From NCBI RefSeq assembly GCF_012271785.1, contig NZ_JAAWVT010000003.1, positions 62,001 through 126,000 on the forward strand: a DNA stretch of 64,000 nt, in the 5' to 3' direction. The notes under the pieces are model-generated. The model was not told the DNA's origin. It saw only the letters and a program-made list of their open reading frames with translations, and did not search any database. The stretch is from Paeniglutamicibacter terrestris. GTDB lineage: Bacteria > Actinomycetota > Actinomycetes > Actinomycetales > Micrococcaceae. The number at the start of each line of letters is the position of its first letter. Within the stretch, counting starts at the first letter, position 1. Below, one piece after another: positions 19,785 to 50,705 of this stretch. The position numbers and the translations under genes are program-made.

Positions 19785-20439
19785 ACGAAACACGATTTGA
19801 GGAGTCATTTTGGCTATTTATACCTTGCCTGAGCTGCAGTACGATTACGCCGCTTTGGAGCCGAATATTTCGGCGCGGATCATGGAGCTGCACCACTCCA
19901 AGCACCACGCTACGTATGTTGCTGGAGCGAATACTGCGTTGGAGCAGTTGGCTGAGGCCCGCGAGAAGGGCGAGTTCGGAGCGATTCCGAAGTTGTCCAA
20001 GGATTTGGCGTTCCACTTGGGTGGTCACACCAACCACTCGATTTTCTGGAACAACCTGTCTCCGGAGGGTGGCGATAAGCCTGAGGGTGAGTTGGCTGCT
20101 GCGATTGATGACGCTTTTGGTTCTTTTGATGCTTTCCGTGCGCACTTCACCGCTGCTGCGATGAGCTTGCAGGGTTCGGGTTGGGCGTTGTTGGGCTTTG
20201 AGGGCTTGGGTGGCCAGTTGGTCATTGAGCAGCTTTATGATCAGCAGGGCAACGTTCCGGTCGCGACGACTCCGTTGTTGATGTTGGACATGTGGGAGCA
20301 CGCGTTCTACCTGGATTACGTGAATGTTAAGGCCGACTATGTGAAGGCTTTCTGGAACATTGTGAATTGGGCGGATGTGTCGGCTCGTTTTGATGCTGCG
20401 CGCGCTGGTGCGGCGAAGCTGATCGTCCCCGGCAAGTAA
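19785..20439 (+). repeat. Long direct repeat, copy 1 (sodA plus its ribosome-binding site)
   Basis: This 655-bp segment recurs at 48504-49158. By direct reading there are three differences in the coding part (20112, 20253, 20262), all synonymous, and one upstream (c versus g at 19791). Identity starts about 25 bp before the TTG codon and stops exactly at the stop codon. Confidence 0.95.
19810..20439 (+). CDS. sodA: Superoxide dismutase (Mn/Fe family), copy 1
   Basis: Converts superoxide to oxygen and hydrogen peroxide; 209 aa, cytoplasmic. Metal ligands are visible: His in [11 protein letters not shown] (about residue 27) and [13 protein letters not shown] (about residue 78), then [12 protein letters not shown] (Asp and His, about residues 165-169). 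The start is TTG at 19810, 5 nt after a strong GAGGAG ribosome-binding site. The gene lies between whiA and gap. Its protein is identical to copy 2 at 48529. Codon choice is odd for this genome: Leu is mostly TTG and many codons end in T, unlike adjacent whiA and gap, which strongly prefer C or G endings. Confidence 0.96.
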
Positions 20440-44773: not shown

Positions 44774-46228
44774 CTATTGGAGCATTGAAGTCAGTCGCGC
44801 TAAGTTGTCAGCAGTTCGCTGCCACAGCGTCCTGCTCAGCCACTCTTCGAGGTGCAGCTCGCGTGAACGCTCCCGATAGCCGTCCTGAACTGCCAACAGA
44901 TCGTTGAGCAGTTCTGGGCCGTGAAGCAGCACCGAGACTTCCATATTAAGTGAGAACGAGCGCATATCCATGTTGGAGGAACCAACGATTGCCACCTCGT
45001 CGTCGATGGAGAAATGCTTGGCGTGGAGCACCTTGGGGGCGCGGTACAGATAGATGCGAACCCCGGCACGCAACAATGCCTCGTAGTAGGAACGCTGCGC
45101 ATGATGAACTAGGGCTTGGTCCCCGATCTCCGAGACAAAGAGTTCAATCGGAACTCCACGTGCTGCCGTAGTTAAGATCGCTAACAGGATTGATTCGTCG
45201 GGAACGAAATAGGGGCTGGTGATGGAAACGCGCGTTGTGGCCTGGTGGATCATCAACGTGAAGAGCTTCAGGCTGTTGTCGTTTTCGAAGCTTGGACCAC
45301 TGGGTAACACCTGCGCATCAATGTTTCCATTCCACGTTGGTGCACTGCTGCTCGGCGGGCGCAGCTCCAGAAGTGTTCCGGTTTCGCTATACCAGTCGGT
45401 GATGAAAACAGCGTCGAGTTCACGTACCGCGGGGCCCTCAATGCGCATCATCAGTTCGTGCCAGGTGAGCCCGCGTTGGATGTTTTTGGCCTTGTGGTAG
45501 CGCGGTTCGATGAGGTTCATGGAACCGGTGAATCCTACCGATCCGTCGATCACCAGAAGCTTGCGGTGATTTCGCAAATCTGGACGTTGCCATTGCCCCC
45601 GCCAGGGACGCAACGGCAACATTTGATGTAGTTGCGCGCCAATGGAATCCAAAAACCTGATGGTCTCTGTGCGTCGCGGATACATCAGCGAGGCCACATG
45701 ATCAACTAATACGCGCACCTGCACTCCGCGTTCGCATGCGCGGGCCAGCGCACCAAAGAACGGCGCTGTGGCATCGTCGAGAACTCCAATGTAAAACTGA
45801 ACGTGTACATGTTCCTGGGCGTCATCAATGGCTTCGGCCATCTCCTTGATGGTGCCCAGATAATCATCATTTAGTGTGATCCGATTCCCGCCCACCATCG
45901 GTAGGGCGCCGAGCGCCATGTTCAGTTCGGCCGCGGAGCTGAGCCAGTTTGGCCACAAAGGCGAATGAGTTTTAGGCCAGGAGCCACCGGTACGGCGGAG
46001 CATCAGCTCATTTACCTCGCGCTGCTTGGCTCGACGATGGGCGGGGAGTCGTCCAAAACCGATCAGCAGGTAGGCCGCGACGCCCAGAAAGGGAATAAAA
46101 ACGATCATCATGACCCAGGCGATGGCCTCCGCCGGCTTTCGGTTGCGAGAAACCAGCACCGTGGCCAATAATCCCAAGACCACGTGGGTGATGCCGAGCA
46201 ACAACGCCCAGATATCGATCTCGCTCAT
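44774..46228 (-). CDS. cls: Cardiolipin synthase (phospholipase D family)
   Basis: A 484-aa membrane enzyme that joins two phosphatidylglycerols to make cardiolipin. Two N-terminal transmembrane helices (residues about 5-60) precede two PLD domains. The two HKD motifs appear as NHRKLLVIDGSVGFTGSMN (about residue 235) and HAKHFSIDDEVAIVGSSNMD (about residue 403). The ATG at 46228 overlaps the stop of the AI-2E family gene. Its 3' end comes within 20 bp of the bioY operators. Confidence 0.92.
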   Translation of the reverse strand: MSEIDIWALLLGITHVVLGLLATVLVSRNRKPAEAIAWVMMIVFIPFLGVAAYLLIGFGRLPAHRRAKQREVNELMLRRTGGSWPKTHSPLWPNWLSSAAELNMALGALPMVGGNRITLNDDYLGTIKEMAEAIDDAQEHVHVQFYIGVLDDATAPFFGALARACERGVQVRVLVDHVASLMYPRRTETIRFLDSIGAQLHQMLPLRPWRGQWQRPDLRNHRKLLVIDGSVGFTGSMNLIEPRYHKAKNIQRGLTWHELMMRIEGPAVRELDAVFITDWYSETGTLLELRPPSSSAPTWNGNIDAQVLPSGPSFENDNSLKLFTLMIHQATTRVSITSPYFVPDESILLAILTTAARGVPIELFVSEIGDQALVHHAQRSYYEALLRAGVRIYLYRAPKVLHAKHFSIDDEVAIVGSSNMDMRSFSLNMEVSVLLHGPELLNDLLAVQDGYRERSRELHLEEWLSRTLWQRTADNLARLTSMLQ

Positions 46229-47259
46229 CGTTTTGCCTGCGCCGGAACTATGACCTTCTTGATGATGAGCAAGAGGGCCGCACTGGCGGGACAGGCAACT
46301 AGTGCGCCGAGCAGGCCAGCCAGTGTGCCACCGGCCATAGCCCCAATCAGCACCATGGAGGCGGGGATACTGATCGCCTTGCCCACCACGCGTGGGGTCA
46401 GGACGTAGGCCTCAACCTGCATGTAGATAATCATGACCAGCAGGACCGCCAGAGCGGTTCCTGGGGAATGGAAGAGGGCTACTGCGGTGATGATCGCAGT
46501 GCTGATGACGGATCCGATCAGCGGGATCATGGTGATCGGCAGCGCCAGTACCGCAAGAACGGGTGCGAAGGGAACCTGCAAGATGGTGAGTAGGAGGAAG
46601 GTGAAGGTCGCATTGATGGTCGCCAGAATCGCCATGCCGCTGAGGTAACTGCCCACGGAAGCGGCGATCTCTTCGGAAATTTCCACCGCCGCAGCGCGCC
46701 GGCTGGCGGGTATTAAGTCGTAGAAGCCATTCTTGATGGCATCCAAGCCGATGACGAAGTAGAGCGTCAGCATCGTCACGAAGAGCACCGCGAAGACGCC
46801 ATTGGCCACGCCGAAACCGGCCTTAAGTGCGCCATTACCCAAAGCAACCCACAGCACCGGATCGCTGACCGCGCGCTGTAACCATTCGAGGCCGGGCACC
46901 AGTGCGCCGTCGAGCGTGTCATCCAGCGCCATGAACCAGCTTTGGGTTTCGATCCCTTCCAACCGGCCGGGCAATGAGACTAACAAGGCGCTGCCCTCGG
47001 TCACCATCAGCGGGACAATGAGACACAGGACCGCTGCCCCGAAGAGAACGATGGCGCCGGCGACGCAGACAACTGCTCGAACCCTGCCCATGCCCAGCCC
47101 GGCGAGTTTGCGCACCACCGGGTCCAATCCCAGAGAAATGAAAAGCGAGACGAATACCAACGTCAGTACATAGGTCAGTGATACGACGGCCGCGCCCAGG
47201 GCCAGAGCAGTCAGCACTCCCAATGTCACCACGAACCCCGCGCGAAAGGTGAGTCTCAT
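46225..47259 (-). CDS. AI-2E family transporter (PF01594)
   Basis: A 344-aa polytopic membrane protein with paired N-terminal helices (VVTLGVLTALALGAAVVSLTYVLTLVFVSLFISL), a soluble middle part and C-terminal helices containing MIPLIGSVISTAIITAVAL. The family was named for autoinducer-2 export, but many members are Na/H antiporters or uncharacterised, so no substrate is assigned. I chose ATG at 47259 because AAGGAG lies 10 nt upstream; upstream sequence is not membrane-like. It overlaps cls by 4 bp and probably forms an operon with it. Confidence 0.85.
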   Translation of the reverse strand: MRLTFRAGFVVTLGVLTALALGAAVVSLTYVLTLVFVSLFISLGLDPVVRKLAGLGMGRVRAVVCVAGAIVLFGAAVLCLIVPLMVTEGSALLVSLPGRLEGIETQSWFMALDDTLDGALVPGLEWLQRAVSDPVLWVALGNGALKAGFGVANGVFAVLFVTMLTLYFVIGLDAIKNGFYDLIPASRRAAAVEISEEIAASVGSYLSGMAILATINATFTFLLLTILQVPFAPVLAVLALPITMIPLIGSVISTAIITAVALFHSPGTALAVLLVMIIYMQVEAYVLTPRVVGKAISIPASMVLIGAMAGGTLAGLLGALVACPASAALLLIIKKVIVPAQAKR

Positions 47260-47356
47260 GTTGCTGGCGCTCCTTGTCTGAGTGCGGTGTAGGGATGCCC
47301 TCCACTTGCCCGACTGTAGACGATCATCACATCTGGGTGAATACAGCGCGCCGAAC

Positions 47357-47388
47357 GGCAAACGGGCAGAATGGCAAACGGGCAGAAT
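47357..47388 (+). repeat. Perfect tandem duplication of a 16-bp unit upstream of soxR
   Basis: The unit GGCAAACGGGCAGAAT occurs twice with no spacer (47357-47372 and 47373-47388) and ends 6 bp before the soxR ATG. It may be a regulatory iteron or a recent slippage duplication that moved the promoter. Confidence 0.9.
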
Positions 47389-47394
47389 AGAGAC

Positions 47395-47859
47395 ATGGAC
47401 ATGAATGATGGGATATCGCAGGACCTGAGCGTGGGACAGGTGGCGGCGCGTTCGGGTGTTGCCGTCTCGGCCTTGCATTTCTACGAGCGTGCGGGGCTGA
47501 TCGCCTCACGGCGTACCGCCGGCAATCAGCGTCGCTATGACCGTAGCGTGCTACGTCGGGTAGCCGTCATTCGCGCGGCCCAGCGCGCGGGAATTCCGTT
47601 GAAGTCGATCGGCGAGATCTTTGCTGGACTGCCTAACGATGTTGCTCCCCTCAAGGAGGACTGGCAGGAGGTCTCCGCCGCATGGCGTGAGGATTTGCAG
47701 GAGCGTATCCACCAACTTCAATCTCTGCGTGATGGTTTGGGCGGTTGCATTGGATGCGGTTGCCTTTCATTGGCCGAATGTGGCTTCGTGAACCCCAACG
47801 ATAAATTGGCCGATGAACTTGGTGGGGCCAGGTTGTTTAGGGATGACGACTCAATTTGA
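47395..47859 (+). CDS. soxR: SoxR redox-sensing MerR-family regulator
   Basis: A 154-aa activator with an N-terminal MerR helix-turn-helix (LSVGQVAARSGVAVSALHFYERAGLI), a dimerisation helix, and the [2Fe-2S] cysteine motif CIGCGCLSLAEC (C-x2-C-x-C-x5-C, about residues 115-126), which is diagnostic for SoxR. The family responds to redox-cycling compounds or superoxide. The ATG at 47395 or 47401 may be used. The stop codon overlaps the -35 box of the next promoter, so SoxR lies directly before its likely target. Confidence 0.93.
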   Translation: MDMNDGISQDLSVGQVAARSGVAVSALHFYERAGLIASRRTAGNQRRYDRSVLRRVAVIRAAQRAGIPLKSIGEIFAGLPNDVAPLKEDWQEVSAAWREDLQERIHQLQSLRDGLGGCIGCGCLSLAECGFVNPNDKLADELGGARLFRDDDSI

Positions 47860-47886
47860 CCTCAACCTTGGTTGAGGTTCTAGCGT
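47856..47886 (+). promoter_or_regulatory. SoxR-type promoter with embedded SoxR box
   Basis: -35 TTGACC (47856-47861) and -10 TAGCGT (47881-47886) are 19 bp apart, the overlong spacer typical of MerR-family activated promoters. Between them lies CCTCAACC-TT-GGTTGAGG (47860-47877), whose arms are perfect complements and match the SoxR box pattern CCTCAAG...CTTGAGG. Confidence 0.78.
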
Positions 47887-47921
47887 TGAGGGAGAAGAAG
47901 GTCATCCCCGCCCATGTGGGG

Positions 47922-48470
47922 ATGCTCAATGAAAGGATCTCCACACCCGCTATGCAAATCCTGAACCGGTCCGAGTTGGTGGCCGAGCAATTTCGTCTCG
48001 CCTTTGGGAACCATCCCGCAGGTGTCGCTGTCGTGACGGCCAGCGGAGCTCGGGGGCCTGTCGGGATCACCGTTTCGTCGCTGATTTCCGTATCCGCTGA
48101 TCCCGCATATCTTGCCTTCAGCGTCGCCCGGGTCACTGGTTCGGCCGAAGTGATCCTTCAGGCCAAGAGTATCGTTGTTCACCTACTGACAGCGAGCAAC
48201 GCCGAGATCGCCGCGTTGTTCTCTCGTCCAGGGGCGCAGCGATTTGCGCAGCTCGAACGGTGGGAAGAATTATCCACCGGAGAACCACTCATCCACGGAG
48301 TGGGCGCTGCCCTGCGTTGCACCATCGAGTCCCGGGTCGAAGCCGGGCCAGCCACGTTGGTGGTTGCCTCAGTTATGGAGATCCTTGACGGAGAATCCCT
48401 TGCCGCGCCGCTGGTTTATCACCGGCGCGGCTATCACAGCATCGGTGAGCATTCCCGCCTCACTGCTTGA
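47922..48470 (+). CDS. Flavin reductase family protein
   Basis: A 182-aa FMN-binding split-barrel protein of the flavin reductase type, which reduces flavins with NAD(P)H. The family core is visible: VAEQFRLAFGNHPAGVAVVTA (residues about 20-40), GPVGITVSSLISVSADPAYLAFSVA (about 45-70) and VVHLLTASNAEIAALF. The start is uncertain: 47922 is used, and 47952 is also possible; anything upstream of about 47893 would lie before the predicted transcription start. Its place behind the SoxR box suggests induction by redox-cycling agents. sodA copy 2 follows after 58 bp with no terminator between. Confidence 0.82.
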   Translation: MLNERISTPAMQILNRSELVAEQFRLAFGNHPAGVAVVTASGARGPVGITVSSLISVSADPAYLAFSVARVTGSAEVILQAKSIVVHLLTASNAEIAALFSRPGAQRFAQLERWEELSTGEPLIHGVGAALRCTIESRVEAGPATLVVASVMEILDGESLAAPLVYHRRGYHSIGEHSRLTA

Positions 48471-48503
48471 CCTGGCTCCCGAAAACCGGGTGTTCTGGGT
48501 TCC

Positions 48504-49158
48504 ACGAAAGACGATTTGAGGAGTCATTTTGGCTATTTATACCTTGCCTGAGCTGCAGTACGATTACGCCGCTTTGGAGCCGAATATTTCGGCGCGGATC
48601 ATGGAGCTGCACCACTCCAAGCACCACGCTACGTATGTTGCTGGAGCGAATACTGCGTTGGAGCAGTTGGCTGAGGCCCGCGAGAAGGGCGAGTTCGGAG
48701 CGATTCCGAAGTTGTCCAAGGATTTGGCGTTCCACTTGGGTGGTCACACCAACCACTCGATTTTCTGGAACAACCTGTCTCCGGAGGGTGGCGATAAGCC
48801 TGAGGGTGAGTTGGCTGCTGCGATTGATGATGCTTTTGGTTCTTTTGATGCTTTCCGTGCGCACTTCACCGCTGCTGCGATGAGCTTGCAGGGTTCGGGT
48901 TGGGCGTTGTTGGGCTTTGAGGGCTTGGGTGGCCAGTTGGTCATTGAGCAGCTTTATGATCAGCAGGGCAATGTTCCGGTGGCGACGACTCCGTTGTTGA
49001 TGTTGGACATGTGGGAGCACGCGTTCTACCTGGATTACGTGAATGTTAAGGCCGACTATGTGAAGGCTTTCTGGAACATTGTGAATTGGGCGGATGTGTC
49101 GGCTCGTTTTGATGCTGCGCGCGCTGGTGCGGCGAAGCTGATCGTCCCCGGCAAGTAA
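48504..49158 (+). repeat. Long direct repeat, copy 2 (sodA plus its ribosome-binding site)
   Basis: Second copy of the 655-bp segment at 19785-20439, in the same orientation, 28,719 bp away. Nearly perfect identity spans the ribosome-binding site and the whole gene and ends at the stop codon. Sequences outside are unrelated. Confidence 0.95.
48529..49158 (+). CDS. sodA: Superoxide dismutase (Mn/Fe family), copy 2
   Basis: Encodes a 209-aa protein identical to copy 1, with the same TTG start and GAGGAG site. Metal ligands are as in copy 1 (about residues 27, 79, 165 and 169). Only three synonymous bases differ. Unlike copy 1, this gene is downstream of a SoxR-type promoter and a flavin reductase, so it is predicted to be inducible by redox stress. 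It has its own rho-independent terminator. The T-ending and TTG-rich codon use differs from neighbours. Confidence 0.96.
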
Positions 49159-49178
49159 CAGGCACTAAAACCACGTCG

Positions 49179-49221
49179 GGCGGCTCTGAAGCTGGAGAAT
49201 TTCTCCGCTAACAGAGCCGCC
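49179..49221 (+). terminator. Rho-independent terminator of sodA copy 2
   Basis: Arms 49179-49188 and 49212-49221 pair perfectly (10 bp), with an inner GGAGAA/TTCTCC stem, and are followed at once by T5 (49222-49226). Confidence 0.88.
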
Positions 49222-49256
49222 TTTTTGTGCAATTTATCAATGAGCAGTGTGCGAAC

Positions 49257-50705
49257 TCAGAATCGCGATGAAGAACCCGATCCGGAGAAGCTGCCACCAC
49301 TGGAGCCGTATCCGGTGCTCCCGCCGGAAGAAGTACTAGGAGAGCGACTTTCCTGAACACTGGAGCGGCCCGCCCTGAAACCGCTACTCAGGCCGATCAC
49401 CGACCAGAATCTGGTCGAAGGATACACCGTTCCCAGAATGCTGTGCTCGGAGGCACCGCTGGCTTTTGAGGCATCTGCCGATCCCATGGCAGTGCGCATG
49501 AGTTCGGCCTCCTTGGTTGTTTTGGCGTATTTTTTGATCATGGTCTCGGAGTGCTGCTTCAGCAGTTCTGATAGTTCTTCACGGGACGCAGCGATCTTGT
49601 CCAGTGCGTCTTCCGGGGTCAATTCTCCGGAGCTAATATGGGCTGCCCACTTGTCCATTTCAATGGCCGTCAAGGATTCAAATCTGCTGAGGGCGAGCGC
49701 TGAGGCGGACTGCGGATCAGAGTCTTTCTCTGCCAAGAGTTGTTGGATGGCGGTGAGGTCCTCGCGTAGGGGAACCAGCTGGCGATCCCACGCTGCGCCC
49801 CAGCCCGATCCCATGTTTAGCAACATATTGGTATCCGCAATGACATCATCGAGGCGGTCTAGCTCCGTTGCTTTCTTGGCGAATTTTTCTAAGAGAAGTG
49901 CCGTTCGTTTGCTGTTAAGGTCTTTTGTCGTCAGTGCCTCGGCCTCGTGGCTCTGCTTTGTCAGTTGTGAATAGGCAACCATGAAACCGCGGTATTTTTC
50001 CAGAACTAGGCTCCCGTAGCGCGATGAACTATTGATGGTCTTGGCATTAAGCTCGGTGACTTCCAGATCCATGCTCACGTTCGCGTAGCTGGTATTTGCG
50101 GTTTGCAGTGCCTTTTTGGAGCGGTTCCGATAGATTCTGCGGACCGCCAGGGTGCTGCCCAGTGATATGCCACCAGTCATCACGAGAATACCTGTCCAGA
50201 TATAGAGCACGGGAGACTTGTACCAGGGGCGATTCATCAATTGTGCTGCGCGTTCAACGCCTGTGATCGTCGCGTCGGTCCACTGGGCTTCGCGCAGTAG
50301 TTCTTTCGTGGATTCTTGGATGTCATCACGTTGACTGGGTGAGACCTTGCGGTCTTCTCCGAAGTAGGTGCCTACCTGACGCCCCGATGTGTCTAGTGCA
50401 AAAATGAATAACGAGTCCGCCCATTCTTGCCGGTTTGAACTGAGCCACTCGGGATGGGTTTCGCGGGCGAAACGTAGTACTTCCTCATTGAGGTTGTCAT
50501 TGGGGTCGCCGGCACGGGTATAAATGACGACCTTGGTCGGCTCGTTGAAATTGATCTCTTCGATGGCAGGAATCAAGGACTTTGAGTCCAATGATCCAGC
50601 GGTGTCTTCAACGACGATGTCCGCCGCCGCGACGGCCTGCGCCGCAGGCGCTCCCGTCAGTAGCAACAGGGCCGCCACGGCCAGTGTGGTGTATATCTTT
50701 CGCAT
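49257..50705 (-). CDS. TPM-like / DUF5129 membrane protein
   Basis: A 482-aa exported protein. It has a signal peptide (RKIYTTLAVAALLLLTGAPAAQA, cleavage near residue 25), an N-terminal alpha/beta region (DIVVEDTAGSLD..., VVIYTRAGD, FIFALDTSGRQVGTYFGED) resembling TPM-domain phosphatase-like proteins, a transmembrane helix near residues 170-190 (YIWTGILVMTGGISLG), a long helical cytoplasmic part and a low-complexity Ser/Gly tail ending SSGGSFSGSGSSSRF. Such Gly/Ser tails are typical of TPM proteins. Function is unknown. It is convergent with sodA copy 2. Confidence 0.72.
   Translation of the reverse strand: MRKIYTTLAVAALLLLTGAPAAQAVAAADIVVEDTAGSLDSKSLIPAIEEINFNEPTKVVIYTRAGDPNDNLNEEVLRFARETHPEWLSSNRQEWADSLFIFALDTSGRQVGTYFGEDRKVSPSQRDDIQESTKELLREAQWTDATITGVERAAQLMNRPWYKSPVLYIWTGILVMTGGISLGSTLAVRRIYRNRSKKALQTANTSYANVSMDLEVTELNAKTINSSSRYGSLVLEKYRGFMVAYSQLTKQSHEAEALTTKDLNSKRTALLLEKFAKKATELDRLDDVIADTNMLLNMGSGWGAAWDRQLVPLREDLTAIQQLLAEKDSDPQSASALALSRFESLTAIEMDKWAAHISSGELTPEDALDKIAASREELSELLKQHSETMIKKYAKTTKEAELMRTAMGSADASKASGASEHSILGTVYPSTRFWSVIGLSSGFRAGRSSVQESRSPSTSSGGSTGYGSSGGSFSGSGSSSRF

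Follow-up and report, generated by a model that had tools for sequence, protein, structure and literature searches.

The window, a stretch of 64,000 nucleotides from Paeniglutamicibacter terrestris, carries two sodA genes for superoxide dismutase (SOD), one of which lies a short distance downstream of soxR. Is this second gene part of a SoxR-type operon, and how have two copies with different neighbours come to be almost the same in sequence? The SoxR family signature is a C-x2-C-x-C-x5-C iron-sulphur motif, and the protein, a [2Fe-2S] activator, remodels promoters with a 19-base spacer once it has been oxidised or modified. The genome measures 4.34 Mb in 31 contigs and belongs to the family Micrococcaceae; the G+C content of the window is 61%. 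The comparison within the genus covered 14 near-complete genomes, the window's among them. The features at issue are the following.

19810..20439, plus strand: sodA copy 1 (copy A), between whiA and gap; the homogenisation partner (identity, flanking genes)
47395..47859, plus strand: soxR, a MerR-family redox-sensing activator with a [2Fe-2S] cysteine motif (TIGR01950, alignment)
47856..47886, plus strand: SoxR-type promoter overlapping the soxR stop codon (pattern scans, genus comparison)
47952..48470, plus strand: flavin reductase, first gene of the putative SoxR operon (PF01613, 112.6 bits, cut-off 27)
48511..49158, plus strand: homogenised block made up of an 18-base leader with ribosome-binding site, the sodA coding sequence and its stop codon
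48529..49158, plus strand: sodA copy 2 (copy B), Fe/Mn superoxide dismutase with a TTG start (PF02777, PF00081)
about 49178..49226, plus strand: intrinsic terminator after sodA copy 2 (strong hairpin with a U-run)

The SoxR-type promoter and the genes behind it

The soxR open reading frame encodes 154 residues and scores 205.6 bits against the NCBIfam SoxR model TIGR01950 (cut-off 116.9). The motif CIGCGCLSLAEC is present; its four cysteines are invariant and three other positions vary in an alignment of 11 SoxR proteins. The stop codon of the gene (TGA, 47857-47859) sits within a -35 box, TTGACC, at 47856-47861, and a palindrome with perfect arms of 9 bases, ACCTCAACC-TT-GGTTGAGGT, occupies 47859-47878. 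Downstream of the overlap between stop codon and -35 box the sequence reads ACCTCAACCTTGGTTGAGGT and then the -10 box TAGCGT (47881-47886), a weak match to TATAAT, which gives a spacer of 19 bases. The complete promoter pattern matched once in the window and in 0 of 100 shuffles. Across the 4.34-Mb genome the dyad CCTCAAN6TTGAGG has a single exact site, and no second site came below three mismatches to the 23-base pattern that includes the -35 box; looser SoxR boxes, with up to two mismatches, numbered 150 in the whole genome as against 140 for the reversed pattern.

The order soxR, promoter, flavin reductase, sodA is the same in all 14 near-complete genomes of the genus, and the SoxR-type promoter lies upstream of copy B in each of them, its palindrome having one altered arm base in three (G002, G006 and G011). 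Upstream of copy A, the promoter pattern matched in 1 of 15 regions, and that match is of the chance type. At six loci (L048, L049, L054, L055, L057 and L067) the soxR frame extends into the palindrome and ends within the second arm; the final residues of the regulator are thus encoded by its own operator. At L059 (G010) the part of the SoxR box that includes the -35 box is tandemly repeated, and soxR ends within the first, partial repeat. The soxR gene of G239 (L207) contains an in-frame stop, which reflects either decay or a sequencing error.

A MerR-family protein other than the adjacent SoxR might act at this promoter. In one family of the order, f14, the corresponding dyad reads CTCCAG/CTGGAG or CTGCAG, and the 6-kb stretches read there showed no soxR, which lends the idea some colour. 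In the genus, however, each of the 14 genomes has soxR next to the promoter, and the 20-base dyad of the window agrees at 17 bases with ACCTCAACCAATGTTGAGGT, the SoxR box that precedes sodA1 of Stenotrophomonas maltophilia (PMC6479884). I regard the involvement of another regulator as improbable here.

The reductase, whose start (ATG 47952) was chosen by comparison with relatives, is followed by copy B after 58 bases. The spacing is 51-70 bases in all 14 genomes of the genus, about 29-51 bases in g51 (measured by eye) and 157 bases in G034. No terminator-like site was found by the scan between reductase and copy B, and the fold of 48465-48530 has a z-score of only -0.18. The same spacing was folded in two relatives, L044 and L049, and gave short GC hairpins (z -1.45 and -2.59, respectively) without a U-run. 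A strong terminator comes only after sodA, where the fold of 49156-49240 reaches -36.5 kcal/mol (z -5.56), a value matched by 0 of 200 shuffles. RNA families were absent from 46000-50000 at gathering scores. Beyond the terminator, at 49257-50705 on the minus strand and thus convergent with copy B, lies a gene for a DUF5129 protein (409 bits, cut-off 27.3), which, within the genus, adjoins copy B in 10 of 13 relatives.

These spacings bear on the possibility that copy B is transcribed mainly from a promoter of its own, in or just before the 58-base spacing, and that SoxR controls only the reductase. The 157-base spacing in G034 would leave room for such a promoter, and in G104 and G138 the SoxR-linked copy is the sole sodA of the genome. 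The short spacing elsewhere argues against it, as do the position of the strong terminator, the failure of a simple scan (one that is blind to 19-base spacers) to find a sigma-70-like site with a 16-18-base spacer or a terminator-like site between the two genes, and the finding that in four other families a SoxR/MerR-type promoter stands directly before sodA. A separate promoter as the main source of copy B transcripts is therefore unlikely, though it is the strongest of the alternatives considered, and co-transcription from the SoxR-type promoter is the reading retained here.

Copy A is flanked by whiA (TIGR00647) on one side and by the glyceraldehyde-3-phosphate dehydrogenase gene gap (TIGR01534) on the other, with about 210 bases containing conserved blocks between it and gap. 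An earlier note on this DNA had described soxR with an intact Fe-S cysteine motif, the overlap of its stop codon with a -35 box, the perfect-arm palindrome with 19-base spacer and -10 box, and a flavin reductase and complete sodA without an intervening terminator, and each of these elements was recovered. Its proposal that one sodA is wired to SoxR gains from the conservation of promoter and gene order in 14 of 14 genomes, which points to such control. Its companion proposal, that the other sodA stays with glycolysis, is supported in part, by adjacency: copy A lies next to gap, some 210 bases away, and may or may not be transcribed with it.

Identity of the two sodA copies

The earlier note did not mention what is a stranger fact than the SoxR wiring, namely that the two sodA copies are homogenised. 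In the window they are distinguished by 3 of 627 coding bases, each a silent difference inside the coding sequence, and their flanks are unrelated. Across the genus, copies A and B of one genome are 97.0-100% identical (mean 99.5), seven of the 14 pairs being fully identical, while sodA genes of different genomes are 82.8-100% identical (mean 89.1). At fourfold sites, 0-9 differences among 92-108 sites were counted within a genome, as compared with a mean of 33% between genomes. The gap gene differs by 30% at fourfold sites between the same genomes, so that sodA is not a slowly evolving gene.

The distribution of the differences was then read site by site. Over 91 genome pairs, 5871 sites are common to the twins of a genome but different between genomes and 594 are of other kinds; the pattern expected of orthologous descent, in which A equals A and B equals B but A differs from B, occurred at 0 sites. 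The paralogue is the nearest relative, or tied for nearest, in 13 of 14 genomes, the exception being G014, whose copy B equals the copies of G009. When copies were re-paired at random, the observed mean was reached in 0 of 20000 trials. In the sodA tree the twins are joined by genome in 11 of 14 cases; the copies of G009 and G014 mix in a single clade, and G007 is left without resolution. A single clade of copies B was rejected at p 4e-6, in a test that left 7 sets of identical rows free.

Both loci, whiA-sodA-gap and soxR-reductase-sodA, are present in 14 of 14 near-complete genomes, 28-45 kb apart and on the same strand. The duplication thus predates the species splits, the same two syntenic loci being found throughout. 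Fresh duplication in each lineage could also account for the likeness of the twins, and full identity in 7 of 14 pairs is what would be seen after such an event. Independent duplications would not, however, repeat the same two syntenic places with unrelated flanks in 14 genomes, and the pairs of G001, G007 and G008 show 19, 9 and 8 differences, respectively. Strong constraint at silent sites, the other way to dispense with conversion, fails on the fourfold sites, which differ between genomes as they do in gap. Both explanations were dropped on synteny and fourfold-site divergence; together they deserve very little credence.

It might also be feared that near-identity is an assembly artefact produced by collapsed repeats, the more so as the drafts G021, G043, G230 and G239 break inside sodA. 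The one-contig genomes G003, G013 and G014 nevertheless hold both copies, with distinct flanks and 3, 0 and 1 differences, respectively, and the contig of the window bears both, with its 3 differences. On this evidence the artefact was dropped as well, and its probability is close to nil. The sodA pair is then best described as a case of apparently long-lasting concerted evolution, for which gene conversion would be the simplest cause.

Where does the homogenised sequence end? The common stretch comprises the coding sequence, a few bases beginning with the stop codon and, in 12 of the 14 genomes, at least 12 bases of the leader. The exceptions at the leader border are G012 and G001, in the latter of which a one-base shift breaks the register. 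The start codon agrees between twins as well, being ATG in both copies of G012 and TTG in both copies of the other 13 genomes. Between the copies of the window lie gap, a pgk-like gene, tpiA and suf genes; a crossover that deleted this segment would therefore probably be lethal, which leaves conversion of the non-crossover kind.

Two draft assemblies contain irregular sequences. In G122 (L164, L191) a contig joins soxR-reductase-sodA to gap and whiA-sodA runs to a contig end; this junction may be an assembly chimera at the repeat or a true recombination between the twins. In G264 (L202) copy B matches in three separate pieces, through decay or sequencing error. Draft assemblies can misplace identical repeats.

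SoxR-linked sodA in the Micrococcaceae and beyond

All 245 sampled genomes of the Micrococcaceae have sodA, and 27 have at least two matches, 14 of these 27 being in the window's genus. In G065, G095 and G177 the second match is incomplete and more divergent. Near-identical sodA pairs were also found in two further Micrococcaceae genera and in three other families. In g21 (Zhihengliuella among them) and g51, sodA lies downstream of soxR and the reductase, and local alignments of five pairs from these groups gave 98.4-99.7% identity within genomes and 89.5-92.9% between genomes of one genus. In G104 and G138 (L232, L233), whiA adjoins gap without sodA and the sole sodA of the genome stands behind soxR and the reductase elsewhere. 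The SoxR-linked gene must therefore serve basal needs too in these two genomes, and may have a second promoter.

The soxR-box-reductase unit also occurs without sodA: sister loci that lack sodA keep the unit, G065 has it, and Arthrobacter luteolus (L083) and other Micrococcaceae have soxR, SoxR box and flavin reductase in the same order as the window but no sodA after them. In a soxR-reductase tree of 34 loci, the 25 that bear sodA do not form one clade, implying either several gains or one gain followed by several losses. Of 592 SoxR loci in named records from other genera, the best 80 were considered; the reductase is present in 3 of these, one of which also has sodA. A fifteenth genome of the genus, G005 (410 contigs, 88% complete), carries soxR, box and reductase on a contig that stops about 100 bases past the reductase; no sodA turned up in this genome. 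In G021, whose assembly breaks inside sodA, no SoxR-type promoter was found within 250 bases of either copy.

The search was extended to 198 sampled genomes of the order, of which 162 had a sodA match; 23 genomes outside the Micrococcaceae (f1) had at least two. The 250 bases upstream of sodA were scanned for TTGA (with at most one mismatch) and a dyad at SoxR spacing; the scan was designed after nine pairs had been viewed. Both upstream regions were readable in 20 of the 23 two-copy genomes, G287, G312 and G347 being left out; within f1, the upstream regions of the second copies in G095, G177 and G065 were left out too. The scan matched before exactly one copy in 15 of the 20 genomes and before both copies in none. 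Discounting the match of G411, which looks like chance, 14 of 20 have a SoxR/MerR-type promoter before one copy, its -35 box lying 34-84 bases before sodA. Among the ten genomes that had not been viewed beforehand, the promoter was found in 6. Single-copy controls gave 2 matches in 47, neither of them SoxR-like, and shuffles gave 78 in 4650; the 47 controls were the loci at hand plus 30 genomes hand-picked to spread the families, and include L165 and L169, sole copies linked to SoxR and reductase with the box further upstream. Similar sites below threshold are present in G314 and G043, and none of SoxR/MerR type was found within 250 bases of either copy in G323, G333 and G407. The assembly of G323 breaks inside sodA, as identical repeats would make it do.

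In four other families, then, a SoxR/MerR-type promoter directly precedes one of the two sodA copies, and soxR itself is at most 2 kb upstream in G350, G373 and G405. The dyad is of the CTCAA type in f11, f13 and part of f8, and of the CCTCGA type in G271 and G285 (f8). In f14 (L247, L248, L251, L270 and L274) a CTCCAG or CTGCAG dyad lies 34-50 bases before one sodA twin, and the regulator of that family may be another MerR protein.

Identity between twins outside the Micrococcaceae is less uniform. The 17 pairs measured fall into 10 at 96.7-99.7%, G405 at 92.9% and 6 at 74-80%, as compared with 87.9-97.0% between genomes of one genus and, for G386 and G403, 91.9-94.0%. The twins of G405 are less alike (92.9%) than G405 and G350 are (94.3%), and this genome is therefore not clearly concerted. 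In G302 and G406 paralogues are 75% and orthologues 95-98% identical, which indicates that unconverted pairs do diverge. The promoter is present in G302, G406 and G413, whose twins are only 75-77% identical, and is missing from the scanned regions of G021 and G323; SoxR wiring and homogenisation are therefore separable. As judged from these sequences, homogenisation happens often but not in every pair, and SoxR wiring can do without it. I lean towards a design that evolved repeatedly across the order Micrococcales, in which a second sodA would have been captured by a SoxR/MerR-type promoter and then kept the same as the housekeeping copy by gene conversion limited to the coding sequence, its regulation diverging and its enzyme unable to.

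A model, and its relation to known systems

The model that I favour, with a probability of roughly 0.8, is that of a SoxR-type operon made up of the reductase and copy B, set beside a housekeeping copy A, the two coding sequences being kept alike by gene conversion. Copy A, in its whiA-sodA-gap setting, would be the ancestral gene, presumably supplying basal SOD. Copy B would be the second gene of a short operon that starts at the SoxR-type promoter and ends at the terminator after sodA. SoxR, oxidised or modified by a redox cycler, would occupy the palindrome of the 19-base spacer and realign the -35 and -10 boxes, raising reductase and SOD together. The benefit may be that, as the reductase turns over flavin, SOD clears away superoxide, by which reduced quinones and flavins are driven to autoxidise. 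Intragenomic non-crossover conversion would meanwhile keep overwriting each sodA coding sequence with the other, in tracts that run out with the homology at leader and stop codon. With conversion stopping at these borders, the promoters would stay separate and the enzyme would stay one.

A precedent for the regulatory half of this model is S. maltophilia, which has two MnSOD genes, one linked to growth and the other, sodA1, induced by menadione through SoxR (PMC6479884). The view taken in the earlier note, that SoxR outside enteric bacteria usually controls redox enzymes rather than SOD, is thus incomplete. The promoter architecture described here, known from its sequence, fits the S. maltophilia type, but the twin belongs to an actinobacterial soxR-reductase-sodA arrangement, unlike sodA1, and SodA1 and SodA2 share only 68% of their residues, with no homogenisation mentioned in the portion of the source at hand (PMC6479884). 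In Streptomyces coelicolor the SoxR regulon comprises six genes, oxidoreductases included, and SoxR acts there on a few promoters that have a SoxR-binding site; 'superoxide dismutase' is absent from the main text (PMC4146615). In the window's genome, by comparison, the exact site occurs once and leads into a reductase and sodA. Antarctic Arthrobacter genomes have up to two sodA genes, and soxR without soxS (PMC4326396).

For the evolutionary half, the likeness is to twins of the tufA/tufB type, in which paralogues are closer than orthologues through recurrent gene conversion in different gene contexts (PMC6053082). The prokaryote-wide survey in question counts 26 concertedly evolving genes, and its main text contains neither 'superoxide' nor any word starting with 'sod' (PMC6053082). 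The sodA twins resemble tufA/tufB in their apparent concerted evolution and differ in that one twin stands behind the promoter of a stress regulator. No report of SoxR-linked, homogenised sodA twins was found in the open-access literature, outside which most subscription papers lie. Each component is of a known kind; their combination and its recurrence appear to me to be new.

SoxR also regulates sodBII in Agrobacterium. The text seen of PMC11975290 does not state this regulation. In actinobacteria, SOD, and not only efflux pumps and oxidoreductases, would belong behind SoxR-type promoters. As draft assemblies can break at sodA, such pairs call for caution. Duplicates are normally expected to diverge, to be lost or to be kept for dosage. 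The sodA twins instead seem split in control and fused in sequence, throughout a genus and several times in the order as sampled, and they offer a natural system for asking whether gene conversion is selected or tolerated, and what sets its borders.
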